A stretch of 64,000 nt of DNA from Stutzerimonas stutzeri (GTDB taxonomy: Bacteria > Pseudomonadota > Gammaproteobacteria > Pseudomonadales > Pseudomonadaceae): assembly GCF_024448715.1 (NCBI RefSeq), contig NZ_JAMOHZ010000001.1, positions 434,001 to 498,000 of the forward strand. The letters are read 5' to 3'. Positions 5,300 through 64,000 of the stretch are shown one piece after another. The notes beneath the pieces are model-generated. The model searched no databases. It saw only the letters and a list, made by a program, of their open reading frames with translations, and had not been told where the DNA came from. A program made the position numbers and the translations under genes. The stretch's first letter is position 1. The number at the start of each line of letters is the position of its first letter.

Positions 5300-6390
5300 G
5301 GCAACTCCTCAACTAGTAGATCATCCGCGTAGAGCATCAGCCATTGCGCCGGAAAGCCCACCCAGGCTTGCCCTTGCGGGACGACCTGATCTTCAGGCAG
5401 GCGCGCCTTGAGTAGCTGGCCTTGCATGCGGAAGGTCAAAATCTTGTAGGTGCCGAGGTCCTCGACGCGCACCGCATCAACCTGCATGCCGCCGCTCGCC
5501 TCGTCGGCGACCTGCACGAACTCGGGTCGGATACCGATCTGCAGGCGCTTGCCGACGAGCGATGGCAGGCGCGCCGCAAGCGATTCGGACAAGCGCAGAT
5601 ATTGATTGCCAAACGCCACACCGCCCTCCTCAGCCCGAACGTCAATCAAATTCATTCCCGGGCTGCCGACGAAGAAACCCACGAAGGTGTGTTGGGGGCG
5701 CTCGAAAAGCTCGCGCGGCGTGCCGAACTGAACGATTTGACCGCCATGCATCACCGCAATTTTTTCGGCGAAGGTCGAGGCTTCCAGCTGGTCATGAGTG
5801 ACGTAGATCATGGTGATGTTGAACTGCTCGTGGATCTGTTTGAGCTTGCGTCGCAACTTCCACTTCAAGTGCGGATCGATGACCGTCAGCGGCTCGTCAA
5901 AGAGGATCGCTGATACGTCGTCCCGCACTAATCCCCGCCCCATGGACACCTTCTGTTTTTCGTCAGCGGTCAGGTTGCGAGCCTTTCGCTTGAGCAGCGG
6001 ATGAAGATCGAGTACCTCGGCAATCTCATGGACCTTGCTGGTGACACGCGCCTCCGGGACGCCCTGATTGCGCAGGGGGAAAGCAAGGTTGTCGAACACA
6101 GTCATGGTGTCGTAGACGACCGGGAACTGAAAAACCTGGGCGATGTTGCGCTGCTCGGGCGTCATCCTGTTCACCTCGCGCGCGTCGAACAGCACCTGCC
6201 CTTCGGATGGGCTGAGCAAACCGGAAATGATGTTCAGCAAAGTTGACTTGCCACAGCCGGAAGGGCCCAGCAATGCATAAGCTCCGCCCTGTTCCCAGAC
6301 ATGGTCCATCTCGCGGATGGCGTAATCCGCTGCGCCACGCGGCTGCGCACTGTAGCTGTGGGCCAGGTTCTGTAGGCGAATCTCTGCCAT
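5296..6390 (-). CDS. ABC transporter ATPase, GlpT-like, with degenerate signature motif
   Basis: Cytoplasmic ATPase of 364 residues with a C-terminal TOBE-type regulatory domain, as in MalK. Walker A GPSGCGKST is at 42-50, the Q-loop Gln is near 88, Walker B AILFDE is at 161-166 and the H-loop His is at 199 (YVTHD). The ABC signature LSGGQ is replaced by LTADE at 140-144. The partner ATPase has the opposite defect, so the pair should have one working and one degenerate ATP site. The gene starts 9 bases after the partner's stop. Confidence 0.88.
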   Translation of the reverse strand: MAEIRLQNLAHSYSAQPRGAADYAIREMDHVWEQGGAYALLGPSGCGKSTLLNIISGLLSPSEGQVLFDAREVNRMTPEQRNIAQVFQFPVVYDTMTVFDNLAFPLRNQGVPEARVTSKVHEIAEVLDLHPLLKRKARNLTADEKQKVSMGRGLVRDDVSAILFDEPLTVIDPHLKWKLRRKLKQIHEQFNITMIYVTHDQLEASTFAEKIAVMHGGQIVQFGTPRELFERPQHTFVGFFVGSPGMNLIDVRAEEGGVAFGNQYLRLSESLAARLPSLVGKRLQIGIRPEFVQVADEASGGMQVDAVRVEDLGTYKILTFRMQGQLLKARLPEDQVVPQGQAWVGFPAQWLMLYADDLLVEELP

Positions 6391-6399
6391 GGGACTTCC

Positions 6400-7482
6400 T
6401 CAGACACGTCGCGCCGGCGCTTGGGCCAACCGGCCCGTGGCGTCGAAGACGAACAGCTTGTGAGTCGGGATGTAGACGCGAATGGGCGAGTCCACTGGAT
6501 AGTCGTGAACTCCCTGCACGTGCAGAACCAAGCTGAAGTGCTCGTTGCGCACGTGGAGAAAGGTCTCCGAGCCGCTGATTTCCGCCAGTTCGACCGTGCC
6601 AGAAACCTCCAGGTCGTCATCATTGGACGGCACCAGCCCGATGTGGCTGGGACGTACACCGAAGCTGTAAGCCCCCTCGCATAGTCCGCGCAGATCGGCG
6701 TTCAGCGGAAAATGCATGCGATCTTCAAAGCTGACCTCACTGGAAGCGATACGCCCTGGCAATAAATTAATCGGCGGCTCGGAAAACAACTCGGCACTCA
6801 GCATCTGGCTCGGCCGGTGATAAACCTCAGACGTCGGTCCGCTCTGGATGACCCGCCCTTCATGCAGAACGGTGGCCGTGCCGCCCAACGCCAAGGCTTC
6901 GTTGGGCTCGGTGGTGGCGTATATGGCAATGCTGCGCCGCGTCCTGAACAGCTCGCGCATTTCCTGACGGAGCTCCTCGCGCAGCTTGTAATCGAGGTTT
7001 ACCAGCGGCTCGTCGAATAGCACCAGATCGGCGTCTTTCACCAGCGCTCGGGCCATGGCCGTCCGCTGCTGCTGGCCACCGGAAAGCTCCAACGGGTGCC
7101 GCTCCAGAAAGCTTTCGATGTGTAGCATTTCCGCCGTTTCGCGAACCTTGCGTTCGATCTCGACCTTACCAACCCCAATCTGACGCAGCGGCGATGCGAT
7201 GTTTTCAAACACAGTCAACGTCGGGTAGTTAATGAATTGCTGGTAAACCATCGACACGTTGCGCTTGCGTACCGGCACGCCGGTCACATCGGCCCCGTTC
7301 ATGAGAATGCGGCCGCTACTCGGCTTGTCGAGGCCGGCCATTAGGCGCATCAGTGAGGTTTTACCCGCTAGCGTTCGCCCGATCAGCACGTTGAACGAAC
7401 CAGGCTCGAAGCCCAGGCAAACGTCGTCGATGTGTAGCTGCCCATCGACCTTCTTGGTGACGTGTTCCAGCGTGAGGGACAT
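6400..7482 (-). CDS. ABC transporter ATPase, GlpS-like, lacking the H-loop histidine
   Basis: First gene of the operon; 360 residues. Walker A is the variant GRTLAGKT (35-42), the signature LSGGQ is intact at 133-137 and Walker B LVLFDE is at 153-158. The switch histidine is missing: the segment reads YATTEP (188-193), where the partner has YVTHDQ. A TOBE-like domain follows. With the partner's failed signature this gives an asymmetric heterodimer. Expression probably depends on the sigma-54 promoter 34-49 bases upstream and the divergent activator. Confidence 0.88.
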   Translation of the reverse strand: MSLTLEHVTKKVDGQLHIDDVCLGFEPGSFNVLIGRTLAGKTSLMRLMAGLDKPSSGRILMNGADVTGVPVRKRNVSMVYQQFINYPTLTVFENIASPLRQIGVGKVEIERKVRETAEMLHIESFLERHPLELSGGQQQRTAMARALVKDADLVLFDEPLVNLDYKLREELRQEMRELFRTRRSIAIYATTEPNEALALGGTATVLHEGRVIQSGPTSEVYHRPSQMLSAELFSEPPINLLPGRIASSEVSFEDRMHFPLNADLRGLCEGAYSFGVRPSHIGLVPSNDDDLEVSGTVELAEISGSETFLHVRNEHFSLVLHVQGVHDYPVDSPIRVYIPTHKLFVFDATGRLAQAPARRV

Positions 7483-7515
7483 GTCGCATCCTTCTATTTG
7501 TTATAGGAGAACGAT

Positions 7516-7531
7516 TGCCATATTCGTGCCA
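7516..7531 (-). promoter_or_regulatory. Sigma-54 (-24/-12) promoter of the ABC transporter operon
   Basis: On the minus strand the sequence TGGCACGAATATGGCA matches the RpoN consensus TGGCACG-N4-TTGCA with one mismatch and the correct spacing of GG and GC. It lies 34 bases upstream of the first ATPase gene, and a gene for a sigma-54 activator is divergent. Confidence 0.85.
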
Positions 7532-7580
7532 TTTCGAAACGGCGGCTCTGGTTCGAGCTCCAGTGGTAAACGAGCAGTTC

Positions 7581-7643
7581 TGAACTGTTCAAAATGAACA
7601 TTTATGAACATTGACAGTGAACAAAAATGAACAAGACTGTTCA
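7581..7643. promoter_or_regulatory. Cluster of TGAACA/TGTTCA hexamers, probable activator-binding enhancer
   Basis: Six hexamers of one family occur in 63 bases: TGTTCA 7586 and 7638; TGAACA 7595, 7605, 7618 and 7628. They form inverted pairs such as TGTTCA-AAA-TGAACA (7586-7600), TGAACA-AGAC-TGTTCA (7628-7643) and the palindrome TGAACTGTTCA (7581-7591). The cluster lies 50-112 bases upstream of the -24 element, where sigma-54 enhancer proteins bind. Confidence 0.75.
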
Positions 7644-7699
7644 GGGCGCACGCTGCAACGCAGCGAAAACAACAAGAACTCGCATTCGAAGAGGGCGAC

Positions 7700-9562
7700 A
7701 TGGCCGACCCAGTCCAGTCCATTTCCCACCAGACACTGGTCGAAGAGTCCTGGCACCGCTGCGAGCGCTTTGGCCTGAACCCACTCAGCACGCCGAGCTT
7801 CGGCCAGCCCGCTGAGCAGGATGTGAGTGCATTGCTCGAACGCCAGCGAAACTTGGTGCAAACCACCCAGCGCGAAGTGCTGCCTTACTACGAAAATATC
7901 CTTTCGAATTCGAGCTGCCTGATCCTACTGGCCGACAGCGGCGGCCAATTACTGGAGTCTTGGGGCGACCGGCGCTTCGTCGAGCCCGCCCAGCGTCGGG
8001 GCTTTTCCCCTGGCGCCAGCTGGATGGAGCGGGACACCGGGACCAACGCCATCGGAACCGCGCTGGCCAGCGGGCAGGCAGTACACATTCAGCGCGACGA
8101 ACATTTCCTCAAGGCCAACCGCTACCTCTCCGGCGCCGCTTCTCCGATCTTCGATGCGCAGCGACAGCTGATTGCGGTGCTCGACGTTTCCAGCGACAGC
8201 TATTTGCCGCCCTCGCACACCCTGGGCATGGTCAAGATGATGAGCCAGTCGGTGGAGAACCGACTGATCCTCAACCTGTTCCATGACGATTACTTCCAGC
8301 TGACCTTCAACACGGGCCAGGACAATCTCGACAGTCAGTGGGCCGGCCTGCTGATCTTCGATGAGTCCGGATTGATCGTCTCGGCCAACCGTCGCGCTGA
8401 CAACCTGCTCGGCGTAACGCTGACGCGCACCCGAATCGACATGCTGTTCGATGTACCCCTGCTGCAATTGCTTAACCAGCCGGAAGAACAACCGATGCTG
8501 CTGCGCGCCATGGGTCGCCATCGATTTCATGGGACCATTCGACGACCGCAGAAGCCGCGCATTCAAGCCCGAGATTTTCGTAGTGCAGCCGCAAAGTACG
8601 CGGTGGATCTGGGAGGGGTTGATTACGGTGATCCGCGTGTGCAGAAAGTGGCTCGCCAGGCTCAGCGGATGCTGGAAAAGAATATTCCAGTCCTTGTTCA
8701 CGGCGAGACCGGCGTTGGCAAAGAGTTTCTGGTCAAGGCGCTACACGCGGCCAGCTCCCGAGCGGCGGCACCGCTGATAGCCGTTAACTGTGCGGCCATT
8801 CCTGGCGAGCTGATCGAATCAGAGCTTTTCGGTTACGAGAAAGGTGCGTTCACCGGCGCTCATCACAAAGGCAGCAGCGGCCTGATTCGCAAGGCCGACA
8901 AGGGAGTGCTATTTCTTGATGAAATCGGCGACATGCCGCCCAATTTACAGGCCCGGCTGTTACGCGTCCTGCAGGACCGTTGCGTGCAACCGCTTGGAGG
9001 TGGCGACCCCTATCCTGTGGACTTCCGGCTGATCTGCGCGACCAACCGGTCTTTGCGGCAGGAGGTCGAAAGCGGGCGCTTTCGCCAGGACCTGTTCTAC
9101 CGCGTCAGTGGTTTCAGTACCGAGCTGCCGCCGCTGCGTGCGCGAGCCGATAAGCTCGCGCTATTTCAGCGGGTATGGGAACAGCATCGCGAGCCACAGC
9201 AATGGGCTGGCCTGAGCAACGAAGTCCAGCGCTTGTTCGAACGCCACCCCTGGCCCGGCAATATCCGTCAGCTGAGCAGCGTGATCCAGGTCGCCCTGGC
9301 GATGGCTGACGAACAGCAGATCAGGCCGGAACATCTGCCTGATGACTTCTTCGATGACCTCGAAGCCGAGCCCGACGAGGGCCGATACGACTCGCAGCGC
9401 CAACTCAACATGCTCGAGCCCCAGCGAACCCAGCCGAACCAACAACTGCGTAGTCAGTTCGAAGCCTGTCGCGGCAATATTTCGCATCTAGCCCGGCACC
9501 TCGGCGTCAGTCGCAACACCTTGTACAAGCGACTGCGTGCCGAGGGCCTTTATCCAGGTTAA
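7700..9562 (+). CDS. Sigma-54-dependent activator of the AcoR/DhaR type
   Basis: DNA-binding enhancer protein of 620 residues. The N-terminal part (about 10-200) carries the ESWHRCERFGLNP opening and GAF-like sensor typical of AcoR-family regulators of acetoin and glycerol metabolism. A linker or PAS-like region follows, then the AAA+ domain with Walker A GETGVGKE near 335 and the sigma-54 contact loop GAFTGA near 382. A Fis-type helix-turn-helix (NISHLARHLGVSRNTLYKRL) is at the C-terminus. It is divergent from the ABC operon, so it most likely activates that operon through the hexamer cluster; the inducer is not visible. Confidence 0.9.
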   Translation: MADPVQSISHQTLVEESWHRCERFGLNPLSTPSFGQPAEQDVSALLERQRNLVQTTQREVLPYYENILSNSSCLILLADSGGQLLESWGDRRFVEPAQRRGFSPGASWMERDTGTNAIGTALASGQAVHIQRDEHFLKANRYLSGAASPIFDAQRQLIAVLDVSSDSYLPPSHTLGMVKMMSQSVENRLILNLFHDDYFQLTFNTGQDNLDSQWAGLLIFDESGLIVSANRRADNLLGVTLTRTRIDMLFDVPLLQLLNQPEEQPMLLRAMGRHRFHGTIRRPQKPRIQARDFRSAAAKYAVDLGGVDYGDPRVQKVARQAQRMLEKNIPVLVHGETGVGKEFLVKALHAASSRAAAPLIAVNCAAIPGELIESELFGYEKGAFTGAHHKGSSGLIRKADKGVLFLDEIGDMPPNLQARLLRVLQDRCVQPLGGGDPYPVDFRLICATNRSLRQEVESGRFRQDLFYRVSGFSTELPPLRARADKLALFQRVWEQHREPQQWAGLSNEVQRLFERHPWPGNIRQLSSVIQVALAMADEQQIRPEHLPDDFFDDLEAEPDEGRYDSQRQLNMLEPQRTQPNQQLRSQFEACRGNISHLARHLGVSRNTLYKRLRAEGLYPG

Positions 9563-22572: not shown

Positions 22573-23568
22573 TCACACCCATTTCAGGCGCCGGAAAACC
22601 CACCACTGAAACCCCGCAACCGCGGCAATCATTGCGCAAGCCAAGGCGAAACCGTACGAATTCTCCGATCCAGGAATGCCACCAACGTTGATTCCAAGCA
22701 GTCCGGTAAGAAAGCTCATCGGCAGGAAGAAGCCGGTGATAATGCCAAGCAAGTACATGGTTCTGTTCATGCGTTCACGCATGCGCCGCTCTTCCGCCTC
22801 GAGAACCAGGTTGGCCCGTTCACGTACCAATTCCAGCTCTTCGAGATAGCGGATCAGGCGGTTGCTCAGCTCATTCCAGTAGTCCGTGTCGTCTTCGACG
22901 AACCAGGGCAGCCGATTACGAGTTAATTGACCATATATCTCGCGCTGAGGCAGCAGAAAACGGCGTAGACTTGCGGCTTGCCGGCGCAGCGTGAGCATTT
23001 TGTCCTGAGGCGGCGTGTAACGCTCATCGGTTTCGATGCGGTCCTCTTCCGCGTCCAGTTTCTCAGTCAGGACCGCAACCAGATCATCTACTCGATCAGT
23101 AAGCGCATCAGCCAGACCGAGCAGTATCTCCGAAGAAGTCTTCGGCCCAACACCAGCCTCCAACTGTTGAATAACCGCCTCGGTGGAGCGCAGCGGACGC
23201 AAACGCAGAGTGATGACCCGACGCGCACCGGCGAATACTCTCAACGAGACCATGTCCTCCGGCTCGGCGTCAGGATTGAGGTTAACTCCGCGAAGAAACA
23301 GCAGCAGCTCGTCGCCAGGCAACGCAAGCGACCGCGGCCTTGTGTTCTCTTCCAGTAGAACGTCGCAAGCGAAAGCACTTAGTCCGCTGCGCGTGCGTAG
23401 CCAGCTCTGAGCGGCGGGCTGGCTACGATCCCAGTGGAGCCAAAGGCTCTCCGCCTCGCTCAGTTCTAGAGCAGCAAGATCGGTATAAGCGATCTGACGT
23501 GCCCCGCCGCGCCCATCCAGCACCAAGGCGTGCAGCAACCCTGATTGGGCATTATCCTCAGACAGCAT
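22573..23568 (-). CDS. cmaX: CmaX, CorA-family metal transporter
   Basis: CorA-type divalent-cation channel of 331 residues. A long cytoplasmic N-terminal domain with acidic helices is followed by two C-terminal transmembrane helices (about 268-290 and 302-322). The signature loop here reads GINVGGIPGSENSYGF, a zinc/ZntB-like variant rather than the GMN of classical CorA, so zinc efflux or cobalt transport is as likely as magnesium uptake. The ATG at 23568 has GAGGCG upstream. Confidence 0.85.
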   Translation of the reverse strand: MLSEDNAQSGLLHALVLDGRGGARQIAYTDLAALELSEAESLWLHWDRSQPAAQSWLRTRSGLSAFACDVLLEENTRPRSLALPGDELLLFLRGVNLNPDAEPEDMVSLRVFAGARRVITLRLRPLRSTEAVIQQLEAGVGPKTSSEILLGLADALTDRVDDLVAVLTEKLDAEEDRIETDERYTPPQDKMLTLRRQAASLRRFLLPQREIYGQLTRNRLPWFVEDDTDYWNELSNRLIRYLEELELVRERANLVLEAEERRMRERMNRTMYLLGIITGFFLPMSFLTGLLGINVGGIPGSENSYGFALACAMIAAVAGFQWWVFRRLKWV

Positions 23569-53876: not shown

Positions 53877-54164
53877 TCAAAGCAAGGGTTCGAGCGCCAC
53901 CCAGGCGTTGTCCAGCAGCCGTTGCTGCGCGCCGGCCACGGGATGTACGCCATCGGATTGCATCATTCCGGCAACCCCTCCTATACCTTCGAGAAAAAAC
54001 GGTACGTAGGGCAGCTCCTTTTCCTCTGCAAGCGAATCGAACGCGTTGGCGAACGCAGTCGTGTAGCGCTGCCCCAGGTTCGGCGGCAAACGCATGCCGA
54101 GCAGCAGAACCTGGGCACCTGCCTGGCGCGACTGCTCAACCATCGCCGCAAGATTCTGTTTCAA
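53877..54164 (-). pseudogene. Stranded 3' end of an arylesterase gene (tesA-like), cut off by element integration
   Basis: The frame encodes the last 95 residues of a GDSL/SGNH esterase, including the catalytic Asp-x-x-His as SDGVHP. It has no proper start; it runs out of the 31-bp attachment repeat at 54135-54165. A 64% identical version of the same 95 residues is at 63706-63993, joined to the rest of the gene. The left copy is therefore the original chromosomal 3' end, displaced by the integrated element, and is probably not expressed. Confidence 0.85.
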
Positions 54165-54165
54165 T
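54135..54165. repeat. attL: left 31-bp direct repeat
   Basis: Starts CTCAACCATCGCC and ends TTCTGTTTCAAT; identical to 63964-63994. It lies inside the arylesterase coding sequence, covering codons for about QLKQNLAAMVE on the minus strand. Confidence 0.93.
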
Positions 54166-54211: not shown

Positions 54212-55681
54212 ATGAATGCTCAAGCTGCACCGTCAATTGTTAGAAATGTGTTAGAAGTTCCGCTCGCCAAGCCGTGGCACTATCGCCGCTCAGGTACGTA
54301 CTATCTCAGGGTCCGACCGCTTAGCCTCAAGGGCTCCTGTACGCTATCCCTACGCTCCACTGATAGACCGACCGCGATGACCACCAGCAAACAGCTCCTA
54401 TCGACACTCAGGGCCTTCCACCTTGACAACCCAGAGGCAACCTGGGAGGAACTCCGCGACCACCTCAGGGCTACCGCTGAGGACCTTCTGGCATCCCCAA
54501 CTGATTGGGAACTGCTCGACACGATGGGGCTCGTCTACTCAGATATGCGCGAGGACCTCCATAAGTTTGCGCGCACTGCCCCACTTACCGCTCCTCAAGC
54601 GAAAGCCGTGGAGATAAGCAGGCGGATCATGCACGAAGCGGAGAGACGTATTGACGGACACCCTAAAGGCCTCGCATCAATCATAGACGAGCTCGATCAC
54701 GATTCTGCTTCTGATAGAGAAAGACTCGCTTCTGCCTCCCTATCTGTAAGTCCACCTCAGGGACTCCCAGCGACCATTGAGGAACCCAAGCCCCTATCGT
54801 GGGAAGACCTGTCGGACAGCTACATGACTGAACACTCGGTCAATGTGAAGGTTTCCACGCTGGGAGCCCTTCGGACGGCTCATACGGTCATTGGAAGGGC
54901 CTTTGAGGCTGTCGGCGTCTCAGACCTAAGCAAGCACAAGCGGGAAGACCTAATAGCCGTGCGGACGAACCTGCTGGAATCCCGCAAGCCGTCCACCGTG
55001 AACAACCTGCTCGCCACCCTCTCGACAGTCCTAAAGTGGGCTGAGGCGAATGACCTGATCAAGAAGGCGTATACAACCAAGCTCAAGCTCACAAAGTCCA
55101 CCACGAGCGAACGAGAGGGTTTCACTGAGTCCCAGGTAGCGAAAGCCATGAGTCATGCCAATGGGCTCCCTTCAACCTCGTGGCAACGCTGGGGCCTGTC
55201 TCTACTGGCTATCACTGGGGCTCGTGTGGGGGAAATCGCACAGCTCACCAAGGAAGATATCAAGCAGGTCGATGGCTGCTGGTGTATCGACATCAACGAG
55301 AGGGGCTCCAAGAGCCTAAAGAATAGCTACAGCTCGCGTCTGGTCCCGCTGATCGACGGGGCCTTGGGGTTTGACCTGACGGCTTTTCTTGAAGCAATCA
55401 AAGCGGGGGCTTTGCCATCTGACAATGGCATCAACCCGATGAACGCCAGCCGTGGTCTCGGCGCACTCCTCAGGGAGGCGCTTGGGGAGAATCGAGCAGA
55501 GAACCAGACGCTCCACTCCTTGCGTCATTCGATGGCCTCCAGGCTCCAGTCGAAAGGGACACCTCTGCCCTTCGCTCAGGCGATCCTTGGTCATGCGTCA
55601 GGGGCTATTTCATACGATGCCTATGGCAACAGCATCCCGATAAAGGCGCTCGCTGAGGTGCTGGAGGACATCTACTGTTGA
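54212..55681 (+). CDS. Tyrosine recombinase (phage-type integrase)
   Basis: Site-specific recombinase of 489 residues, transcribed away from attL into the element. The catalytic domain occupies about 290-485: first Arg in ITGARVGEIAQL (near 331), the HSLRH box (near 428-432), the third-box His in LGHAS (near 452), and the nucleophile Tyr in ISYDAYGNS (near 460-466). The N-terminal half has an arm-binding-type start (YRRSGTYYLRVRP) and a core-binding SAM-like region (near 190-280). Two TGTTAGAA motifs lie in its first codons and two similar ones near attR, which may be its arm sites. Confidence 0.93.
   Translation: MNAQAAPSIVRNVLEVPLAKPWHYRRSGTYYLRVRPLSLKGSCTLSLRSTDRPTAMTTSKQLLSTLRAFHLDNPEATWEELRDHLRATAEDLLASPTDWELLDTMGLVYSDMREDLHKFARTAPLTAPQAKAVEISRRIMHEAERRIDGHPKGLASIIDELDHDSASDRERLASASLSVSPPQGLPATIEEPKPLSWEDLSDSYMTEHSVNVKVSTLGALRTAHTVIGRAFEAVGVSDLSKHKREDLIAVRTNLLESRKPSTVNNLLATLSTVLKWAEANDLIKKAYTTKLKLTKSTTSEREGFTESQVAKAMSHANGLPSTSWQRWGLSLLAITGARVGEIAQLTKEDIKQVDGCWCIDINERGSKSLKNSYSSRLVPLIDGALGFDLTAFLEAIKAGALPSDNGINPMNASRGLGALLREALGENRAENQTLHSLRHSMASRLQSKGTPLPFAQAILGHASGAISYDAYGNSIPIKALAEVLEDIYC
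54238..54256 (+). promoter_or_regulatory. Left putative integrase arm-type sites
   Basis: TGTTAGAA occurs at 54238-54245 and again at 54249-54256. Related copies lie near the right end at 63621 and 63643. Their position inside both ends of the element suggests integrase arm-binding sites. Confidence 0.45.
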
Positions 55682-56322: not shown

Positions 56323-56901
56323 ATGCCTGCTGCAAACATTGGTATCCCGCTGTCCTCTCAAAGCCGTCTCCGTGCCGCCTTAGTGCCTCGTTTCGTTGAG
56401 CACTTCGGTAACTGGCTGTCCGACCAGAAAGCGTTAGGCCCTGGGGCGCACGAAGCACTCTCCTACCTCGAAAAGTTCGACCCTCAATCGACCGCTACCG
56501 ATACGGTTAACTTCACCATGGGCTGGTTCCGGCCAGACTTCAGGCCAACGCCAATCGCGGAGCTTGCTGATTTTCTTGGCGGTTTCTCCCTGGAGTTGTC
56601 TAATTGCCCACGCATCGCTGATGAGGACGAGTTCCACAGATGTTCGCGTCTGGTAGGAACGACCTTAATCACAATGCTCGCAGACTCTACCGGGATCATC
56701 ACGGTTCGGCAGGATGGGACCGACTGCGGCTCCTTCGCGTTGAACCCTAAGACCACGAGTCGAGCGCCAGTGAGACATCCGCCAGCTCGGCGTCTTCGAG
56801 ATGATGCTGCGGAGGGCTCACCCCGTACCGAAAGGATGCTTAGGGCTCTCCGCGACATGCGAGACCTTCGGGAGCGTCGGCAGCTCCGAGCGGCTTGGTG
56901 A
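56323..56901 (+). CDS. Unknown protein, first of a translationally coupled pair
   Basis: 192 residues; not recognised. The first 135 residues look like a folded alpha/beta domain (aromatic-rich FVEHFGNWLSDQ and NFTMGWFRPDFRPTPIAELADFLGGF). The C-terminal 50 are very rich in Arg (RHPPARRLRDDAAEGSPRT, LRDMRDLRERRQLRAAW) and may bind nucleic acid. It has a good ribosome site (AGGAG, 8 bases before ATG). The stop TGA shares a base with the start of the next gene. Confidence 0.65.
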   Translation: MPAANIGIPLSSQSRLRAALVPRFVEHFGNWLSDQKALGPGAHEALSYLEKFDPQSTATDTVNFTMGWFRPDFRPTPIAELADFLGGFSLELSNCPRIADEDEFHRCSRLVGTTLITMLADSTGIITVRQDGTDCGSFALNPKTTSRAPVRHPPARRLRDDAAEGSPRTERMLRALRDMRDLRERRQLRAAW

Positions 56902-57179
56902 TGGGTTGTGATATGCGAGAAATTGTTGAGGAGCTTCGAGGCATCCGAGAGCATCTCGCTGGCCTCCACGCGGCGGCTAAAAAGCGCTCGGCTTACCATT
57001 TATACGGCAGGCTTGATGGAAAACGGACGCTGGTGGAGATGCACCAGCAAGAGTTCGACAAGCAAGCTCTACGCTGGAAAGTTCTTCAGGGAATGACCCA
57101 AGAGGAATTCGATAACTTAACCATCCGTACGCTGGAAAGGCTAACCAGCAGGACACGCCGGGAGCCACCTCAAGAGTAG
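56901..57179 (+). CDS. Unknown small protein, second of the coupled pair
   Basis: 92 residues from the ATG at 56901, whose first base is the last base of the upstream stop (TGATG). Not recognised. It is mostly helical and charged (IVEELRGIREHLAGLHAAAKK), with WKVLQGMTQEEFDNLTIRTLERL as a possible interaction helix, and no membrane segment. An ATG four codons later is an alternative start. It is followed by phage-type promoter 1. Confidence 0.6.
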   Translation: MGCDMREIVEELRGIREHLAGLHAAAKKRSAYHLYGRLDGKRTLVEMHQQEFDKQALRWKVLQGMTQEEFDNLTIRTLERLTSRTRREPPQE

Positions 57180-57229
57180 AAACGCTCGGCCTCGTCGGAC
57201 TGCTGAGCGCATTCAGTTATGCAGACGGC

Positions 57230-57252
57230 CAAAAGTCCTCACTGAAAGACAC
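57230..57252 (+). promoter_or_regulatory. T3/T7-like phage RNA polymerase promoter 1
   Basis: The segment CAAAAGTCCTCACTGAAAGA shares GCCAAAAGTCCTCACT with two other sites in the element and has the T7/T3 core CTCACT at -9 to -4. By alignment to T7 promoters the first transcribed base would be 57247. It stands 26 bases before the start of the gp16-like gene. Confidence 0.7.
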
Positions 57253-57265
57253 CAACTCAGTGAGG
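57237..57265 (+). promoter_or_regulatory. Hairpin that can hide the ribosome site of the gp16-like gene
   Basis: CCTCACTGA (57237-57245) is perfectly complementary to TCAGTGAGG (57257-57265), and the latter contains the GAGG ribosome site for the ATG at 57273. The left arm is part of promoter 1 and lies upstream of its predicted start (57247). Only transcripts from further upstream contain both arms. Confidence 0.6.
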
Positions 57266-57272
57266 TAACCAA

Positions 57273-60200
57273 ATGAGCAACGACCCGTACACAAAGATCA
57301 AGTCCCAGGGTGGTCCGTTTGACACCCTCATCAAGGAAGCCGCTGACACCCACGGGGTTTCCTACGCGCTACTCCACAAGCAGCTATTCCTTGAGTCCTC
57401 CTTCGACCCGAATGCTAAGAGCCCAACGGGTCCCCGAGGCATCGGTCAGTTCACCAAGGCCACCGGCAAGGCTTATGGCTTGGTCAACGAGGAGGACTTC
57501 TACGATCCTGCCAAGTCAATCGACGCAGCCGCTCGGCACATGAAGGACAACCTGAAGCTCGCCGGTGGTGATGAGATGAAGGCTCTCTTGGCGTACAACC
57601 AAGGGGCTGGCAAGTTGGGTCGCCCCCAGCTCGAAGCATATGACCGAGGGGACTTTGGGTCCATCTCGGAGGAGGGCCGGAACTACATGGCGAAGCTGGC
57701 GGATGTCGCTAAGGTCGGCAAAACGACTGAGCTTACCGACTTCGTAAAGCCCTCAAGCGCCTCCGTCGAGGCCGGAGCTATCCCGTTTAATGGCTCGTCC
57801 ATGCACATGGGTGGCAAGGAAGTCCCCGAGAAAACCCAGGGCTTCAAGGAGCTGCTCCACGAGACCACTGGCCGCACTGATGATAATGAGGACCCTCGGT
57901 TCTTCGAGGGCACCGGCATGGCGATTGAAGGTGAACTGGAGCTGTCCCCGCTTGGGATGGCTATTCGTGCCGCTTTAGCAAGCGATGAGTTGGACTTCAG
58001 TGAGTCGTTCGCGATGTTGCACGATGCCCGTAATGATCCGTTTCAAGGCGGAAAACTCACCGACTGGACCGAGGATGATTATGACAAGGTCCGCGCTTCT
58101 GGCCTCGATCCACAGTTCTATGATGTCGTTCTCCGTGGTCGCCGGGAGAACTTCGAGTCGAACCTAAATCTGGCCCAGGAGAACCAGCGAACTGATCAGA
58201 TGATCCGTTCTCAGGGATTCGGCGCTCAGGTCATAGGAGGTGCCGCAGGGTCGTTTGGTGACCCTTGGACCTTGGTGAACCCAGCAAGGGCCACAGGTGT
58301 GAAACTTGGGCCCCGGATTGCTGGCGGGGCCATTACAGGTGGGCCGATAAATGGCTTTTCTGAATACGATTCGGCCAAGGCGTCAGGTCGAGAGGAGAAC
58401 CTGCTGATGGCTATTGCGGGTGGGGCTGCTTTCGGTGGGGTCCTCAATGGCATCTTCGGGCCTCGTCCGTCGACTACCAAGGCTTTTGAGATGATCGACG
58501 AGTACGACTTCCGGTCGTTCTCCGGTAGCTTGCATCGCCTTCAGAACCGCGAGAAAGCCCGTCTTGAGGGTCTTGAGGAAGACCCAGCGGCAATGCCGTA
58601 CCGGGTCGATATAGACGTAATCAAGGAGGACGCAGCGGTTCCCTACATGGATGTCCCATTCGATTCCGCAGCGGCTCGGATGCCAGACGGCACCATCATT
58701 AGTGGTGGGTCACCCTTGAATCCAAAGACGCTCAAGGATTTCCGCGAGATTGACCCCGAGCCTGTACGTGCTAACGCTGGGGTTCGCCTGGGGAACATCA
58801 CCGAAATTGGCCTAATGCTTGGCCGGTCTCAGGACCTTGAGATTCGGGGTCTCGCTAATGATCTGTTCCGGTCACCTACAGGGTATCAGGACGCCTCTAA
58901 TGGTAAGTTCGGGGCTACCGCTTCGGACATCGTGGATCGCCTCAGGGCTCAGGATAACGTGGCGCATAACGAGTTCCGTGGGATTCTTGATGAGACACTG
59001 AGCGACCCTTACTGGCACAACCAGTCACTATCAGCAGCAGCCAAGGAGGAAGTAATCAGCCGCAAGGTGGTTGAGGCTATGGAGGACCCTACTGGCAATC
59101 ACCGGCTAAACCCAGCTGAGCAAAAGCTACTTCAGTCGCTCAAGAAGCACATGGAACAGAAGTGGCTGTTCATCGAGAACCCCGGCCAGTTCGGCAACCC
59201 GAGAGCTAAAAGTCTCCTCAGCGAGACGAGGCACCAAGGCAGCTACTTCCCTCAGCGATACAGCACCCACGCCAAGCAGATGATGATTCAAAAGCTTGGT
59301 GGTGCTGATGGGTTACAGGAAGCTATCGCCCGGTCCTGGCTTACCAGTTACGCCAAGCGTCCGGCCACGCGAGCCCGTGTGGAGAAGATGATCGAGGAGA
59401 AGCTGAAGGCCGAAGGGATCGAGAAGCCGACCGCTGAGGAAGTCATGCAGGCAGTCCAGAAGTACGCCAAGGATAAGGCTTACGGTATCAGTCACACCGA
59501 CCAATTCAACAGTAGCTCAATCATTGAGGAACACCTAAAGGACGGCGCTGGGCTGGGAAACAATGCGTACCTCGAAGCGCGGAACCTGTTCGATTCGGAC
59601 GTTAAGGTAAACCTGCCAGATGGGACGCTGTTCTCCGTGAATGACCTCCGTGAATTCGCTGTGATGCGTGTGGTCCCTCAGTACGATCGCCGTGTTAACG
59701 GTGACATCGCCATCATGGGCGGCACTGGGAAGTCCACTGAGGAACTCAAAGCAATCGCAGAGAAGGCCAAGCAGCGCGCGCGCGGCGCTGATGGTAACCA
59801 AGAGGCAGATGCCCTCATGGGTGCCCTCAAGTTGCTCACCGGGCGCTCCCGTAGGGCCAAGCCAGAGGATGCCTTCGAGACGATGCTGCGGGCCACCATG
59901 GATGTTGGGTTCGTCACGAAGAACGCCTTCATGGGCATTCAGAACTTCACTGAAGCGGCCAGTCTGGTGGTCAAGGGGCACCTGAAGATGCTCACCCATG
60001 GTGTTCCGTATCTCAAGAACCTGACAACTGCTGGTACTAATCTGAGCCCTGAAGATATCAAGCAGGTGCACACCATAGTTTTCGGCAAGGAGCTAGATGA
60101 CCTTATTAGACCAACCCGGATGGACATCGTGGATCGCCTGAGGGAGCGTCATGGGGAGTTCTGGGCGCAAGCCGCTGGGGCAACCAAGTGGGCAACGGGA

Positions 60201-61232
60201 GAACTTGCAGCTCGCTCTCCGTTCACGGCGTTCCTCCGGGAAACCAGCAACTACATCATGGACGCTGGACGCCAAGGGGTCATCGTGGACCTTGCAGATA
60301 ACGTGCTTAATGGCACGAGGTCCAGTCTGTTCACTGACGCTCGGCTTCGCTCAGCGAGCATCACACCGGAGCAGATGGCAGGCATTGAGGAGCTCATCAG
60401 GTCTCACTTCAGGCGTGCCGCCGACGGTAAGTGGAGCTTGGAGAACCCTGAGGCTCTCGCAGCGGACCCCCGCTCAATGGACCTTTGGCGTCTGGGTGAT
60501 GCTGTGGCCGATGAGACGATCCTAAGGCCGCATAAGGTTTCCTATCAGATGGTCGAACAGAAATCGGCTTACTGGGCGGCAGCTCTGCAATTCAAGATGT
60601 TCGTTCTACGAAGCATCAATGCCCGAGTGATGCGCGGATGGTGGGAGTCGACCCAAGGCGGAAAGCAGCAGGCTTTCGACCAAGCGCTAAAAGGCATCGT
60701 GTCGGTTGGATTGGCTACTGGGTTCTATGCGGCCCAGGCGCACATGAAGTCCTTCGGGATGCCCGAGCGGGAACGTGGTGACTACCTGAAGAAAGCCCTT
60801 GATCCCAACATGCTGGCCTATGCGGCATTGTCGCGGAGTTCGCACGTTGGGGCTCCCTTGGGTGCTGCTGGTTTCCTGGCGGCTCCCCTTGGTATGGACA
60901 TGGCGGCAGCAGTGCGAACGTCAATCCTACCGAGACAGGATCACAAGGAGCGTGACGACCAGCCCATCAAGTATGGTGCCCTACGGTCCAGCGACATTCA
61001 GGACTTCGGGTCACGCTTGGCTGAGCAGGTCCCAGCGGCTCAAGTGGTGGCGAACGGGTTCCAAGGGGTCAACTCAGCGCTGGGCCTGATGGCTGATAAG
61101 CGTGGCAGTGATGCTCAGGGATACCGAACGGCTCTATGGAACGCCTTGCGTCACTTCGTTCCGAACGACCCAGGTAGCCAAAACCTAATGCTTCGATTGG
61201 CTGAGGCTCACGGGGTCGATAAGGCCCGGTAA
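57273..61232 (+). CDS. T7 gp16-like internal virion protein with lytic transglycosylase domain
   Basis: 1319 residues, almost exactly the length of T7 gp16 (1318). The first 150 residues are an SLT-type lytic transglycosylase: LLHKQLFLESSFDPNAKSPTG with the catalytic Glu near 40, GIGQFTKATGKAYGL near 56-70 and LLAYNQGAGKLG near 107-118. The long remainder has glycine/alanine-rich hydrophobic stretches (AQVIGGAAGSFGDPWTL, MAIAGGAAFGGVLNGIFG) like those that insert into the inner membrane during DNA ejection. The frame is intact, so it is not an obvious relic. It is preceded by promoter 1 and followed by a terminator; no gp14, gp15 or tail genes accompany it. Confidence 0.88.
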   Translation: MSNDPYTKIKSQGGPFDTLIKEAADTHGVSYALLHKQLFLESSFDPNAKSPTGPRGIGQFTKATGKAYGLVNEEDFYDPAKSIDAAARHMKDNLKLAGGDEMKALLAYNQGAGKLGRPQLEAYDRGDFGSISEEGRNYMAKLADVAKVGKTTELTDFVKPSSASVEAGAIPFNGSSMHMGGKEVPEKTQGFKELLHETTGRTDDNEDPRFFEGTGMAIEGELELSPLGMAIRAALASDELDFSESFAMLHDARNDPFQGGKLTDWTEDDYDKVRASGLDPQFYDVVLRGRRENFESNLNLAQENQRTDQMIRSQGFGAQVIGGAAGSFGDPWTLVNPARATGVKLGPRIAGGAITGGPINGFSEYDSAKASGREENLLMAIAGGAAFGGVLNGIFGPRPSTTKAFEMIDEYDFRSFSGSLHRLQNREKARLEGLEEDPAAMPYRVDIDVIKEDAAVPYMDVPFDSAAARMPDGTIISGGSPLNPKTLKDFREIDPEPVRANAGVRLGNITEIGLMLGRSQDLEIRGLANDLFRSPTGYQDASNGKFGATASDIVDRLRAQDNVAHNEFRGILDETLSDPYWHNQSLSAAAKEEVISRKVVEAMEDPTGNHRLNPAEQKLLQSLKKHMEQKWLFIENPGQFGNPRAKSLLSETRHQGSYFPQRYSTHAKQMMIQKLGGADGLQEAIARSWLTSYAKRPATRARVEKMIEEKLKAEGIEKPTAEEVMQAVQKYAKDKAYGISHTDQFNSSSIIEEHLKDGAGLGNNAYLEARNLFDSDVKVNLPDGTLFSVNDLREFAVMRVVPQYDRRVNGDIAIMGGTGKSTEELKAIAEKAKQRARGADGNQEADALMGALKLLTGRSRRAKPEDAFETMLRATMDVGFVTKNAFMGIQNFTEAASLVVKGHLKMLTHGVPYLKNLTTAGTNLSPEDIKQVHTIVFGKELDDLIRPTRMDIVDRLRERHGEFWAQAAGATKWATGELAARSPFTAFLRETSNYIMDAGRQGVIVDLADNVLNGTRSSLFTDARLRSASITPEQMAGIEELIRSHFRRAADGKWSLENPEALAADPRSMDLWRLGDAVADETILRPHKVSYQMVEQKSAYWAAALQFKMFVLRSINARVMRGWWESTQGGKQQAFDQALKGIVSVGLATGFYAAQAHMKSFGMPERERGDYLKKALDPNMLAYAALSRSSHVGAPLGAAGFLAAPLGMDMAAAVRTSILPRQDHKERDDQPIKYGALRSSDIQDFGSRLAEQVPAAQVVANGFQGVNSALGLMADKRGSDAQGYRTALWNALRHFVPNDPGSQNLMLRLAEAHGVDKAR

Positions 61233-61257
61233 GCCACAGGTTCCACGCCCCTCAATG

Positions 61258-61311
61258 AAAACGGAAGGTAAGCCGTGCGAGAAATCGTTGCGGCCCCTTC
61301 CGTTTTTTTTT
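61258..61311 (+). terminator. Terminator after the gp16-like gene
   Basis: AAAACGGAAGG (61258-61268) pairs with CCTTCCGTTTT (61296-61306), followed by more T. The loop is long (27 bases). It lies 26 bases after the stop. Confidence 0.75.
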
Positions 61312-61469
61312 CGGCCTCGCATTGATCGCCTCGAAGTGGTCACCACAACGCCTGGGCCTCAGGCAACCGTTGAGATTCACCAATGGACCACAAGCGGAGA
61401 CGCCAAGGTCTTTATCTATCAATTGGCCGACATACTGGGTCGGATCGAAATCACGAGATAACAACCAAA

Positions 61470-62162
61470 ATGAAAAACAACGCCAACACAACGCAAACCA
61501 ATAACAACGCTATGCAGTTCACCAAGCAGTCCTTCATGGGGATAGAGCTGGACATACTCGTGGGTCACCCAGAGCATGACATCCTGTTCATTGCTACTCA
61601 GGTGGCACGGGCAGCGGGCTTGAAGGACCCAAAAGGTGCCGTGAACAAGGCCAGAAGACTGAGCCACTATGGGGTCTCTCTTAGCGATGTGCTGGTGGCG
61701 CATTCCGCCACTTGTGGTATTCCAGCAGACGATCAGGGGCATCGCCTACGCTCTACCACCGTGCTATTCACCGAGCGTGAAACCTACGAGATGCTCGCAA
61801 GGGGTAACGCGCCTCAGTCCCAGCCGTTCCGCGATTGGGTCTTCGGTGAGGTGCTCCCATCGATCCGCAAGAAGGGCTCTTACAACGTCAACGAGTCCAC
61901 CACCAAGGAGGGCATGCAGTTCTCCGGGGAGTTCGCAGCGCTTCACGCCAAGATCAATGGACTGGAGGCGATGCTCAAGGAGCTTCTGGGGCGTCCTGTA
62001 GCCGGTGCTGCTGAGCCAAGTCCCTACGAGGGGACCACTATGTCCTCTCTTTCGGACAACCTCCTATTCGACCGCCGTACCTTCCGTGAAGTCGGTGAGT
62101 CTATCGGGCTGGTTCGCCCTGGGATCGACAAGCTGGAACCCTATGTCCTGCCGGTCACTTGA
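61470..62162 (+). CDS. Bro-N domain protein (phage antirepressor-like)
   Basis: About 230 residues from the ATG at 61470; the start is uncertain because no ribosome site is clear (an ATG at 61512 is the alternative). The Bro-N domain is plain: ILFIATQVARAAGLKDPKGAVNKARR and later NAPQSQPFRDWVFGEVLPSIRKKGSY. The last 90 residues are a separate region with a short helical stretch (AALHAKINGLEAMLKELLG) and an unrecognised tail. Bro-N proteins of phages often act as antirepressors or DNA-binding regulators. It lies after a terminator and has no CCTCACT promoter of its own, so its transcription differs from that of its neighbours. Confidence 0.8.
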   Translation: MKNNANTTQTNNNAMQFTKQSFMGIELDILVGHPEHDILFIATQVARAAGLKDPKGAVNKARRLSHYGVSLSDVLVAHSATCGIPADDQGHRLRSTTVLFTERETYEMLARGNAPQSQPFRDWVFGEVLPSIRKKGSYNVNESTTKEGMQFSGEFAALHAKINGLEAMLKELLGRPVAGAAEPSPYEGTTMSSLSDNLLFDRRTFREVGESIGLVRPGIDKLEPYVLPVT

Positions 62163-62167
62163 TGAGC

Positions 62168-62190
62168 CAAAAGTCCTCACTAAAAGGAGG
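62168..62190 (+). promoter_or_regulatory. T3/T7-like phage RNA polymerase promoter 2
   Basis: CAAAAGTCCTCACTAAA followed by AGGAGG. Compared with the T3 promoter core CCTCACTAAAGGGAG it matches all but one base, and its AGGAG start recalls the A-initiating T7 phi-2.5 and phi-OL promoters. Identical over 25 bases to promoter 3. The predicted start is 62185, 36 bases before the HNH gene. Confidence 0.78.
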
Positions 62191-62217
62191 ACACAACAGT
62201 CCTCACCTTTGGAGGAC
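62173..62217 (+). promoter_or_regulatory. Four-segment alternating hairpin upstream of the HNH gene
   Basis: GTCCTC (62173-62178) and GAGGAC (62187-62192) are repeated as GTCCTC (62199-62204) and GAGGAC (62212-62217). Segment 4 holds the ribosome site of the gene at 62221. Segments 1-2 and 3-4 can pair, or 2-3 can pair and free segment 4. Segment 1 lies upstream of the predicted start of promoter 2 and is missing from its transcript. Confidence 0.6.
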
Positions 62218-62220
62218 AAC

Positions 62221-62760
62221 ATGAAAACAATCAAACCGCTTCCCGATCTTGAAGAACTGCGACGTTGCTTCAAAGTTAACCCAGAGTGCCCATCCGGCTT
62301 AGAACGGATCGGCGCACCAAGCCCCGTGCCGGGTGGGCGTGCTCGTATTGGCAAGCTCGGAGCGACTGGGGGAATTGGCTCTGACGGGTACTGGCGCGTC
62401 AACTTCAAGGGCTCAAGCTACCGTATCCATCGGATAATCTGGGCGCTTACTCATAACCGGGACCCGCTGGAGCTTGTGGTAGATCATCGGGACGGGGACG
62501 TTCTGAACAATCACCCTGACAACCTGAGGGCCTGTACCGAAGCTGAGAACCTTCAGAACAAGCGATCCCCTGGACGGCGAGACGGCGCGGTCTCGGTGGG
62601 GCTCCCTAAAGGCGTGAAACGAAAGGGGGACGTTTACGTCTTCACGATCATGGTGCGTGGGGAGGTCCATGTGGCTGAGCTGGCGAACTCAAAGGCCGCT
62701 CATGACTATGCCCGACAGGTCCGCGATGAGCTACATGGTGAGTTTGCACGGCACGACTGA
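62221..62760 (+). CDS. HNH endonuclease with AP2-like C-terminal domain
   Basis: 179 residues. The HNH core is in YRIHRIIWALTHN and VVDHRDGDVLNNHPDNLRA (near 68-104), and the C-terminal domain (VYVFTIMVRGEVHVAELANS ... ELHGEFARHD) resembles the AP2-type DNA-binding domain of the HNH homing endonucleases common in T7-like phages. The ATG at 62221 has GGAGG 5 bases upstream. It may act as a homing nuclease, as a packaging-related nuclease or against a rival phage genome; sequence alone does not decide. Confidence 0.85.
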   Translation: MKTIKPLPDLEELRRCFKVNPECPSGLERIGAPSPVPGGRARIGKLGATGGIGSDGYWRVNFKGSSYRIHRIIWALTHNRDPLELVVDHRDGDVLNNHPDNLRACTEAENLQNKRSPGRRDGAVSVGLPKGVKRKGDVYVFTIMVRGEVHVAELANSKAAHDYARQVRDELHGEFARHD

Positions 62761-62782
62761 GCGGCAGTAGCACGCCAGTAGC

Positions 62783-62805
62783 CAAAAGTCCTCACTAAAA
62801 GGAGA
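62783..62805 (+). promoter_or_regulatory. T3/T7-like phage RNA polymerase promoter 3 (phi-OR/phi-OL-like position)
   Basis: Same CAAAAGTCCTCACTAAA core as promoter 2, followed by AGGAGAGG; the predicted start is 62800. It reads into a stretch of about 570 bases without a gene. In T7 such a promoter (phi-OR, phi-OL) lies near each genome end and serves replication and packaging. Confidence 0.78.
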
Positions 62806-63030
62806 GGCCCTTGGTGCCCTCCCTTCGACTTCCCAAGGTCAGCCAATAAGCTGACTCAGGGTGACCCTTCATACCTGATCGTCCGACCGTGACAGCGCTC
62901 AAGCCGTTGACTACGGTTGACCTCAGGCCCGGTAGTCGAGCCGGGGTGAGCTGTAAGTAAGCCGGGTGTGTCCCGGTCGTCTTTGGGAGGTGGTGGCCCC
63001 AGTGACGCTTACAGACGCGGGTGGCTTTTA
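62806..63030. other. Non-coding region resembling a T7-type terminal repeat / concatemer junction
   Basis: No reading frame. The order of small motifs follows the T7 terminal repeat as I remember it: CGGTTGACCT near 62923-62932, a G/C-rich hairpin (CCCGG...CCGGG) after it, GTCTTTGGG near 62979, and TTACAG near 63009. It starts directly behind promoter 3. Promoter plus junction is the minimal signal a T7-like phage uses to process and package concatemers. Confidence 0.45.
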
Positions 63031-63305
63031 CTTAAAGATTACTGAGAGATCATCTTCTTATTCTCTTTAAATAATCTTTAACTCAGTGATTTCTCTGAGG
63101 TTCTCTGAGACCTTTGGTTCTCCTAAAGTTGGGCAGGTCTTGCCAGACCATGACCCTGATTGCTAAAGGTCGGAGCCCTCATATCTCACGGGCGTCAAAG
63201 CGACAGCTTAGGTGGCCCGGTGCGTCAGTCCAAAGGGTTGAGCCTGGGCACCTTAGACAAGACCGCTCAGACCATCGACCCCACTTGTCACCACTGAAAT
63301 ACCAG
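63031..63305. other. AT-rich then mixed non-coding region
   Basis: 63,036-63,125 is AT-rich with an inverted AAAGATTA/TAATCTTT pair (from 63039 and 63065) and repeated TTCTCTGAG. CCTAAAG-type heptamers (CTCCTAAAG near 63119, GCTAAAGG near 63163) recall the short repeats at T7 genome ends. I see no convincing gene; a longer open frame here is interrupted by the terminator at 63306. Confidence 0.4.
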
Positions 63306-63375: not shown

Positions 63376-63549
63376 ATGGGCAAGCTAAAGGCTGCTTACT
63401 GGCTGCTGGTGGTTCTGCCCTGGGTCATCTCTTTAGCCGCTGGGATGGCCGTGAGAATCCGGCAGAAAAATCAGAGAGCCCATATCAATATGAAACCCAG
63501 CGCCCAATCCCCCGTGCCGCCCCCTCGGTTCCTTGGGTCTCTAAGGTAA
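63376..63549 (+). CDS. Small membrane protein (57 residues)
   Basis: MGKLKAAYWLLVVLPWVISL is followed by AAGMAVRIRQKNQ and a proline-rich tail, ending at TAA 63547-63549. One transmembrane helix (about 7-26), then a basic region. AGGA lies 8 bases before the ATG. Too short for automatic calling but the start site and composition look real. It could be a small holin or a superinfection-exclusion protein; no homology is recognised. It lies just behind the T-phi-like terminator, so it needs its own promoter or read-through. Confidence 0.6.
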   Translation: MGKLKAAYWLLVVLPWVISLAAGMAVRIRQKNQRAHINMKPSAQSPVPPPRFLGSLR

Positions 63550-63705: not shown

Positions 63706-64000
63706 TCAGAGCAGCGGTTCGAGAGTAGGCCAGACGTTATCCAACAGTTTCGATTGTGCTTCAGCAGTTGGATGGATTTGGTCACCCTGCATCATGGAAG
63801 GCACACCAGCCACGCCCTCCAGCAGAAACGGGACCAGCGGGACATCGTGCTCAGAGGCTACTTGGGGGAACACTTTGGCGAACGCCTCGGTGTATCTCTT
63901 GCCCAAATTAGGGGGCATAAGCATCCCCAAAATGAGCACCTTAGCACCCGCTTCCTGTGACATCTCAACCATCGCCGCAAGATTCTGTTTCAATTGCGCC
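63706..64000 (-). CDS. Arylesterase (SGNH/GDSL, TesA-like), element-restored 3' end; 5' part beyond the window
   Basis: C-terminal part of an SGNH hydrolase, with the catalytic GDQIHP near its end. The frame is open through attR (63964-63994) to the window edge, where it continues as A-Q-L-K-Q-N. The 3' end from attR to the stop comes from the element; its residues are 64% identical to the displaced copy at 53877. The gene thus should remain functional after integration. The N-terminus with the GDSL serine lies outside the window. Confidence 0.85.
   Translation of the reverse strand, partial: AQLKQNLAAMVEMSQEAGAKVLILGMLMPPNLGKRYTEAFAKVFPQVASEHDVPLVPFLLEGVAGVPSMMQGDQIHPTAEAQSKLLDNVWPTLEPLL
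63964..63994. repeat. attR: right 31-bp direct repeat
   Basis: Identical to 54135-54165; marks the right boundary of the integrated element inside the arylesterase gene. Confidence 0.93.

Follow-up and report, generated by a model that had tools for sequence, protein, structure and literature searches.

Why should a small integrated element carry T7-type phage promoters and no RNA polymerase gene to read them? The question is raised by a 64,000-nucleotide stretch of a Stutzerimonas stutzeri genome (contig NZ_JAMOHZ010000001.1, positions 434,001 to 498,000; hereafter the window), in which a first-pass annotation had proposed a satellite that listens for the polymerase of an infecting T7-like phage, with a decayed T7-like prophage as the alternative. 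The element measures 9,829 bp between 31-bp direct att repeats and is set in a tesA-like esterase gene. It has the general traits of a satellite, namely an island with an integrase and att sites whose virion and replication genes fall short of a complete set, and our sequence comparisons make it very probably a satellite of T7-like phages. That proposal is strongly supported by the anatomy of a family of related elements, by their att repeats and narrow sizes and by promoter subtypes that fit particular T7-like phages; the alternative has lost most of its ground, with the reduced plan kept across the family. What the first pass had not noticed are the candidate packaging signals, the size rule and how broad the family is.

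Phage promoters in an element without a polymerase gene

An exact scan of the window found the 16-mer GCCAAAAGTCCTCACT exactly three times, always on the plus strand, at 57228, 62166 and 62781, so that the three copies previously placed at 57230, 62168 and 62783 are real and their true starts lie two bases further left. All three are intergenic, and copies 2 and 3 are indeed identical over 25 bases (AGCCAAAAGTCCTCACTAAAAGGAG); the core CCTCACTAAA followed by AGGAG, which had been ascribed to the sites in general, is present in these two and not in copy 1, which continues as CTGAAAGACAC. The promoter form of the element is CAAAAGTCCTCACT. When up to three mismatches to GCCAAAAGTCCTCACT are allowed, the window has 5 matches against 0.45 by chance, and none of 100 shuffles reached 5. 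The motif is not common in the host chromosome: the 4.6-Mb genome has three forward copies of GCCAAAAGTCCTCACT, no reverse copy and no occurrence of the pattern read backwards, and its only copies are the three within the element.

Relatives of the internal virion protein of the element (T7 gp16 type) were found in 1,374 phage records, the best of them in Warsawvirus phages, where identity along the whole protein is 54.7-54.8% (54.8% over 100% for phTUNSv), whereas the integrase matched 5 of 50,697 phage records, all from Pseudomonas phages at about 39% identity and all with a gp16 relative as well. The Warsawvirus phages, of which 3MF5 and phTUNSv were read, are T7-like phages with integrases of their own. 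Both resemble the element in their related integrase, in gp16 (55% identity) and in AAAAACCCTCACT-type promoters, but each is a whole phage of 40 kb, equipped with genes for RNA polymerase, replication, capsid and terminase. Their integrase is opposite in orientation to gp16, while the two genes have the same orientation in the window. A promoter of 3MF5 reads, for example, CAAAAACCCTCACTATAAGGGAA; those of the window have GT instead of AC just upstream of CCTCACT. Prophage G274 and phTUNSv have a single CCAAAAGTCCTCACT site each, and a check for window-type promoters in phages (phage records and viral contigs) returned single sites at most.

The claim that the element encodes no RNA polymerase was borne out, as none of its reading frames matches the RNA polymerase of 3MF5. 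A Pfam polymerase search of the whole genome gave no match, but none of its 14 controls matched either, and it says nothing beyond the element. Among the 3MF5 proteins compared, gp16 and the integrase alone have counterparts in the element, and no RNA polymerase, DNA polymerase, capsid, portal, tail-tube or terminase was found by that comparison. Because polymerase, capsid and terminase are absent, we do not class the element as a prophage.

A family of elements with T7-type promoters

A search of 398 genomes of the host's family found gp16 in 10, three of which (G282, G274 and G114) have full T7-like structural clusters; the other seven, including that of the window, have gp16 and an integrase, with no match to portal, capsid, tail-tube or terminase in the stretches read. 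A search by integrase alone was then made to avoid a bias towards gp16. It returned relatives in 40 of the 398 family genomes and in 55 of 398 genomes of one genus (the sets overlap), together with 79 further loci from a genome collection (the best 80 of 101 candidates). The hosts include many Pseudomonas species as well as Citrobacter, Klebsiella, Buttiauxella, Enterobacter, Leclercia, Proteus and Shimwellia. Many of these relatives are small att-flanked elements bearing T7-type promoters, and they share an anatomy of integrase, T7-type promoters, A+T-rich block, terminal-repeat boundary motifs and precise att repeats. Single-linkage clustering of the proteins of 64 elements placed the integrase in all 64, a 340-amino-acid protein in 48, a 159-amino-acid protein in 44 and a regulator-like cluster in 43. 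The window's element belongs to the gp16 type and has none of the latter three.

In Escherichia coli, 384 of 5,426 complete genomes match the integrase DNA (356 over at least 80% of its length), which puts a related integrase in up to about 7% of complete genomes. Integration there is at tRNA-Gly and also, judged by position, at ynfE. The empty tRNA-Gly site is uninterrupted in other strains, the best at 100% over 847 bases, and at least 80% of it is covered in 3,356 genomes; such intact empty sites speak for mobility of the elements.

The promoters were counted in the same 64 elements (470 kb; the ends of nine Enterobacterales members were set roughly). On the plus strand there are 63 matches to the strict pattern A[AC]AnnCCTCACT and on the minus strand one. 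The pattern is present in 37 of the elements and absent from 1.50 Mb strand-bases of host flank and from the plus strand of nine elements of another integrase subfamily. The sequences support the view that the promoter subtypes correspond to those of particular T7-like phages, PspYZU08 and T7 itself among them. The noncoding part of the G170 element matched PspYZU08 and UFJF_PfSW6 alone among the 50,697 phage records, over 35-37 nt, and its match in PspYZU08 (22858-22892) is a promoter site. Among 2.9 million viral contigs TAAAAACCCTCACTAAGGCYA occurs in one only, of 40,184 bases with five copies in two stretches, whose length and promoter spacing are as in PspYZU08; the latter has no annotated integrase. 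The elements of Klebsiella pneumoniae ATCC 13883 and E. coli have the exact T7 promoter TAATACGACTCACTATAGGGAGA, as at T7 phiOR, adjoining AATTAGGGCACACTATAGGGAGA sites, which we take to be K11-type. The subtypes differ as phage RNA polymerases do, and with two forms side by side a single element may respond to more than one helper.

Several loci deserve mention in their own right. T7-like prophages with related integrases were found in Pseudomonas (L089/L047 in G274, L152 in G472 and L149 in G478b; the first was read almost completely, the latter two partly). The element of G272 (L044/L045), a possible step between prophage and satellite, combines an integrase and an entire T7-like RNA polymerase with gp13, gp14 and broken gp15 and gp16. 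L240 of E. coli 14EC001 (4993-9196) is a 4.2-kb relative with the exact T7 promoter and an CTATCTGT site and without an annotated gene of the 340-amino-acid type, and the E. coli loci L243 and L245 are 9.1-kb copies with an IS66-type (ISCro1) insertion, without which they would measure about 6.4 kb. A contig labelled Streptomyces (L217) has a piece of a Pseudomonas-type element, probably through contamination. The elements of the other integrase subfamily (L110-L118 and L204-L214; about 447-479 amino acids) are 3.9-13.9 kb long, with att repeats of about 130 bp and no T7-type promoters by the strict pattern. Defence-like cargo includes Lamassu LmuA/LmuB in L086 (G239), a SIR2-domain protein in L138 (G628) and a PDC-S31 protein in L130 (G562). 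The 340-amino-acid protein, present at L216 (14649-15659) and in 47 other elements, is specific to these elements, and the L216 copy has no match in the 50,697 phage records; an HK97-type capsid fold is predicted for it, as all 50 of the matches listed for its structural model are capsid or encapsulin shells.

Candidate packaging signals, sizes and a proposed route

The terminal repeat of T7 starts after AAAAATCTGAGTGACTA and ends in CCCT ahead of ATCTGT, and the same pair of motifs is found in 3MF5 and PspYZU08. In most Pseudomonas elements the distance of the right motif from the left att is about 555-635 bp, which places it within the integrase gene, where the site reads TCC CTA TCT GTA and codes for SLSV. 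This CTATCTGT site is present in 68 of 84 distinct satellite-type integrase genes (shuffling synonymous codons gene by gene: mean 3.2, maximum 5) and is absent from the integrase genes of 3MF5 and phTUNSv; the other integrase subfamily has it in 1 of 14. Its copies at nt 350-800 of the gene, 63 in one frame and 4 in another, occur in more than one reading frame, which argues for selection on the DNA. The left motif stands within the last 700 bp of 38 of the 64 elements, against 2 for the reversed motif and a mean of 0.98 (maximum 3) in shuffles, and in none of nine elements with the other integrase. In circular or concatemeric form a promoter would be followed by the left motif, the joined att and then the right motif, which is the T7 order, and the predicted repeat is 798-1,188 bp with a median of 944 (41 records with both motifs, G and L copies counted apart). 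The motifs at 63466 and 54737 of the window give 1,103 bp. From their positions we predict that att falls inside a terminal repeat of about 0.9 kb and that the packaged ends are the AAAAATCTGA and CTATCTGT sites. Where elements were read (those of the window, G170, G588 and E. coli), promoters are followed by an A+T-rich block (CTTAAAG...), comparable with that at T7 phiOL, which is a candidate replication origin.

The sizes of the elements cluster at 6.16-6.74, 7.63-7.93, 9.79-9.83, 12.6-13.3 and 19.5 kb, that is, at 1/6, 1/5, 1/4, 1/3 and 1/2 of about 40 kb, and n copies plus a repeat (its own value if known, otherwise the median) come to 37.9-41.4 kb. A reference span of 38.76-41.87 kb was taken from the complete T7-like records among the 40 gp16-bearing matches listed. 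Of the lineages longer than 7 kb, counted as 15 after close relatives had been merged by hand, 13 fall within it; the post hoc tail of this fit is 2.5e-6 to 6.9e-6 under log-uniform or uniform nulls. One of nine elements of the other integrase subfamily fits, and four elements extended after the test had been set gave a mixed outcome. The size classes are interspersed on the integrase tree, where the 1/3 class needs five changes, the 1/5 class four and the 1/4 class two; the window's element is sister to the 6,607-bp element of G028 (84%, full support), and some other joins involve long branches. Relatives of 13.0 kb, about twice the common 6.5 kb, are found at L153+L102 (G261) and L146 (G624).

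We propose the following route. On infection by a T7-like helper, the helper RNA polymerase would read the promoters of the element, which would excise and join its ends at att. The phage polymerase and replication enzymes would then use a promoter and the A+T-rich block as an origin to produce head-to-tail concatemers, in which transcription from the last promoter would cross the left motif and the joined att and reach CTATCTGT in the integrase gene, an order that parallels phiOR, terminal repeat and CTATCTGT in T7. The helper terminase would cut n copies plus one terminal repeat and so fill a head of normal T7 size (4 x 9,829 + 1,103 = 40.4 kb for the window). Satellite gp16 may be built into the particles, suiting them to eject satellite DNA, which is without phage early promoters. 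The full proposal, a satellite family of Pseudomonas and Enterobacterales that mimics the regulation of its helpers, with promoters for one or several phage RNA polymerases, a T7-type origin, a concatemer junction split between the right end and the integrase gene, size jumps among 1/6, 1/5, 1/4, 1/3 and 1/2 of a T7 genome and virion proteins of its own (gp16-type, or HK97-fold and capsid-like) that bias the particles towards satellite DNA, is one to which we would give an even chance.

The features of the element are collected in Table 1. All of its own genes are on the plus strand. The displaced 3' end of the host gene and the copy at the right end form a 289-bp repeat with 63% identity, and the copy brought by the element makes the tesA-like reading frame whole (209 amino acids). 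The gp16 protein matches PHROG 342 at 2.5e-270 and an SLT domain at 6.7e-20, and relatives of the BRO-N protein occur in T7-like phages.

Table 1. Features of the satellite-like element and its insertion site, in window coordinates
Feature	Position	Strand	Evidence or remark
Displaced 3' end of host tesA-like esterase gene, left of element	53877..54164	-	ORF and repeat
attL, 31-bp direct repeat CTCAACCATCGCCGCAAGATTCTGTTTCAAT, left junction	54135..54165	+	
Tyrosine integrase, 489 aa, family hallmark	54212..55681	+	Pfam Phage_integrase 5.8e-16
TCCCTATCTGTA in integrase frame (codes SLSV), putative concatemer-junction site	54737..54748	+	like right end of T7 terminal repeat (CCCT/ATCTGT, repeat ending in CCCT)
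Small lipoprotein-like ORF, 125 aa	55770..56147	+	relatives in sister elements and temperate T7-like prophages
ORF, 192 aa, without confident family	56323..56901	+	
ORF, about 90 aa, without confident family	56907..57179	+	
T7-type phage promoter 1, directly ahead of internal virion protein gene	57228..57253	+	motif match
Internal virion protein D (T7 gp16 type), intact, 1319 aa	57273..61232	+	lytic transglycosylase domain
BRO-N antirepressor-like protein (true start may be downstream)	61383..62162	+	Pfam Bro-N 7.6e-09
T7-type phage promoter 2	62166..62190	+	motif match
HNH endonuclease	62221..62760	+	Pfam HNH_3 4.4e-11; PHROG 99 at 5.6e-34
T7-type phage promoter 3, then about 0.9 kb without clear gene	62781..62805	+	motif match
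A+T-rich block (CTTAAAGATTACT...CTTTAAATAATCTTTAACT), putative replication origin	63025..63110	+	resembles block beside T7 phiOL
AAAAATCAGAGAGCCCATATC, counterpart of left end of T7-type terminal repeat (3MF5 AAAAATCTGAGAGCCCATCTC)	63466..63486	+	
Replacement 3' end of host tesA-like gene, brought by element	63706..63993	-	ORF
attR, second copy of 31-bp repeat; gives element length of 9,829 bp	63964..63994	+	

Competing explanations and significance

A number of observations weigh against the satellite proposal. The promoter variant of the window occurs at most once per viral contig, and no phage was found with an array of it; gp16 was found in no other genome among 56 of the window's genus. 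The strict promoter pattern is missing from 27 of the 64 elements, namely 18 of Pseudomonas, among which 12 have repeated variants (such as TTAAAAACCCTCACAATAACAG and TTAACCCTCACGTTTAGGA), one a single variant and five none, and all nine of Enterobacterales, each of which has other T7-type forms by a looser pattern; the counts by looser patterns carry no chance control. The packaging motifs are not universal either, CTATCTGT being missing from 16 of the 84 integrase genes and the left motif from 26 of the 64 elements. Two of nine integrases set down as phage-borne (a set in which L163 and L235 were placed on weak grounds) have CTATCTGT, at nt 56 and 80, and satellites L222 and L223 likewise carry an early copy (nt 59). 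Elements of 7,084 and 8,559 bp do not fit the size rule; the clusters were noticed before the test was set, so that only 12,609, 13,287 and 9,790 are new data, and the sizes cover loci with a found att, 24 loci of one set and 42 of another (the two overlapping widely) being left unsized. Finally, models suggest that most 6.5-kb relatives encode a protein of capsid-like fold, and some might build their own shells.

This last point is the basis of the alternative that keeps most ground, although we consider it improbable: a capsid-forming satellite that packages monomers in small shells made of the 340-amino-acid protein, with the shell setting the size of 6.5 kb. The frequency of that protein (48 of 64 elements) and its shell-like matches are in its favour, and its 159-amino-acid neighbour (44 of 64), which has a charged C-terminal half, could be a scaffold. 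However, the element of the window lacks the 340-amino-acid protein, the carriers measure 6.5, 7.9 or 13.0 kb while some non-carriers are also 6.3-6.7 kb, all size classes obey n x size of about 40 kb, and the sized elements have no portal or terminase matching 3MF5.

A decayed temperate prophage, in which a Warsawvirus-like phage integrated and lost most of its genes, leaving promoters and gp16 as debris, is less probable still. It would explain why temperate T7-like phages have relatives of the integrase and of gp16, why RNA-polymerase fragments are kept in G189 and a whole polymerase beside pieces of gp13-gp16 in G272, why the tree puts phage integrases at three points among those of the satellites and why certain members are plainly damaged (the gp16 of G194 and the integrase of G219 contain stops; G014 is a further case). 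The integrase and the 1319-aa gp16 of the window are intact, however, and dozens of relatives found without recourse to gp16 keep the reduced plan, the att sites and the packaging motifs. Random decay would not return repeatedly to 1/n sizes, nor would it preserve the DNA sequence CTATCTGT within the integrase gene, and the relative orientation of integrase and gp16 differs from that in 3MF5 and phTUNSv.

Least probable of all, and very unlikely in our view, is a defence island in which the invader's polymerase switches on anti-phage genes without any travel in phage particles, as the cargo of G239, G628 and G562 might suggest, since it leaves unexplained why terminal-repeat motifs are present and ordered as they are, why one site lies in the integrase gene and why the sizes form classes, and a defence scan of a single window ORF (192 aa) found no match. 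Defence cargo is usual in known satellites, and for that reason the defence and satellite readings are compatible.

Among known systems, PICMI, which are Vibrio satellites of virulent phages, are described as 6.1-kb elements with an integrase and no capsid-remodelling gene, sitting beside fis and needing alpA, int and other core genes; eight joined copies, about 49 kb in all, are packaged and fill the normal head of the helper, and the ends are given there as random and headful-like, with no cos or pac site found (PMC10803314). The element of the window is similarly small and integrase-bearing, and concatemers in full-size heads are predicted here from sizes alone. It differs in its site (a tesA-like gene, and tRNA-Gly or ynfE in E. 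coli, rather than fis), in the absence of an alpA or primase match by Pfam among the eight window proteins scanned, and in the T7-type promoters, terminal-repeat motifs, T7-like helper class, several sizes and gp16 or capsid-fold protein of the family.

T7 transducing plasmids are a second parallel: Chung and Hinkle reportedly showed in 1990 that a T7 origin and concatemer junction let T7 package foreign DNA. The same two cis signals are proposed here, but those plasmids were laboratory-made, whereas the present elements are natural and integrating and have one signal inside the integrase gene. Most 6.5-kb relatives resemble cf-PICIs in that they appear to encode an HK97-fold shell protein. 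They differ in that cf-PICIs bring a larger share of packaging genes themselves, and the window's element lacks a capsid gene.

Few phages have been studied as closely as T7, and we know of no natural satellite described for it. The remark in the first-pass annotation that satellites tied to T7-like phages are little described agrees with our search, in which none appeared among the titles and abstract openings listed from the open-licence literature, and the family is apparently both widespread and undescribed. If the satellite proposal is correct, these elements would sense virulent phages by the phage RNA polymerase, which would be a new way for satellites to do so, would offer a clear case of whole-number packaging setting genome size, and would maintain a packaging site at the DNA level inside a protein-coding gene. 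The proposal would be testable in E. coli with T7 and a cloned 6.4-kb element, and, if it holds, T7-like infections may move bacterial DNA and defence genes.

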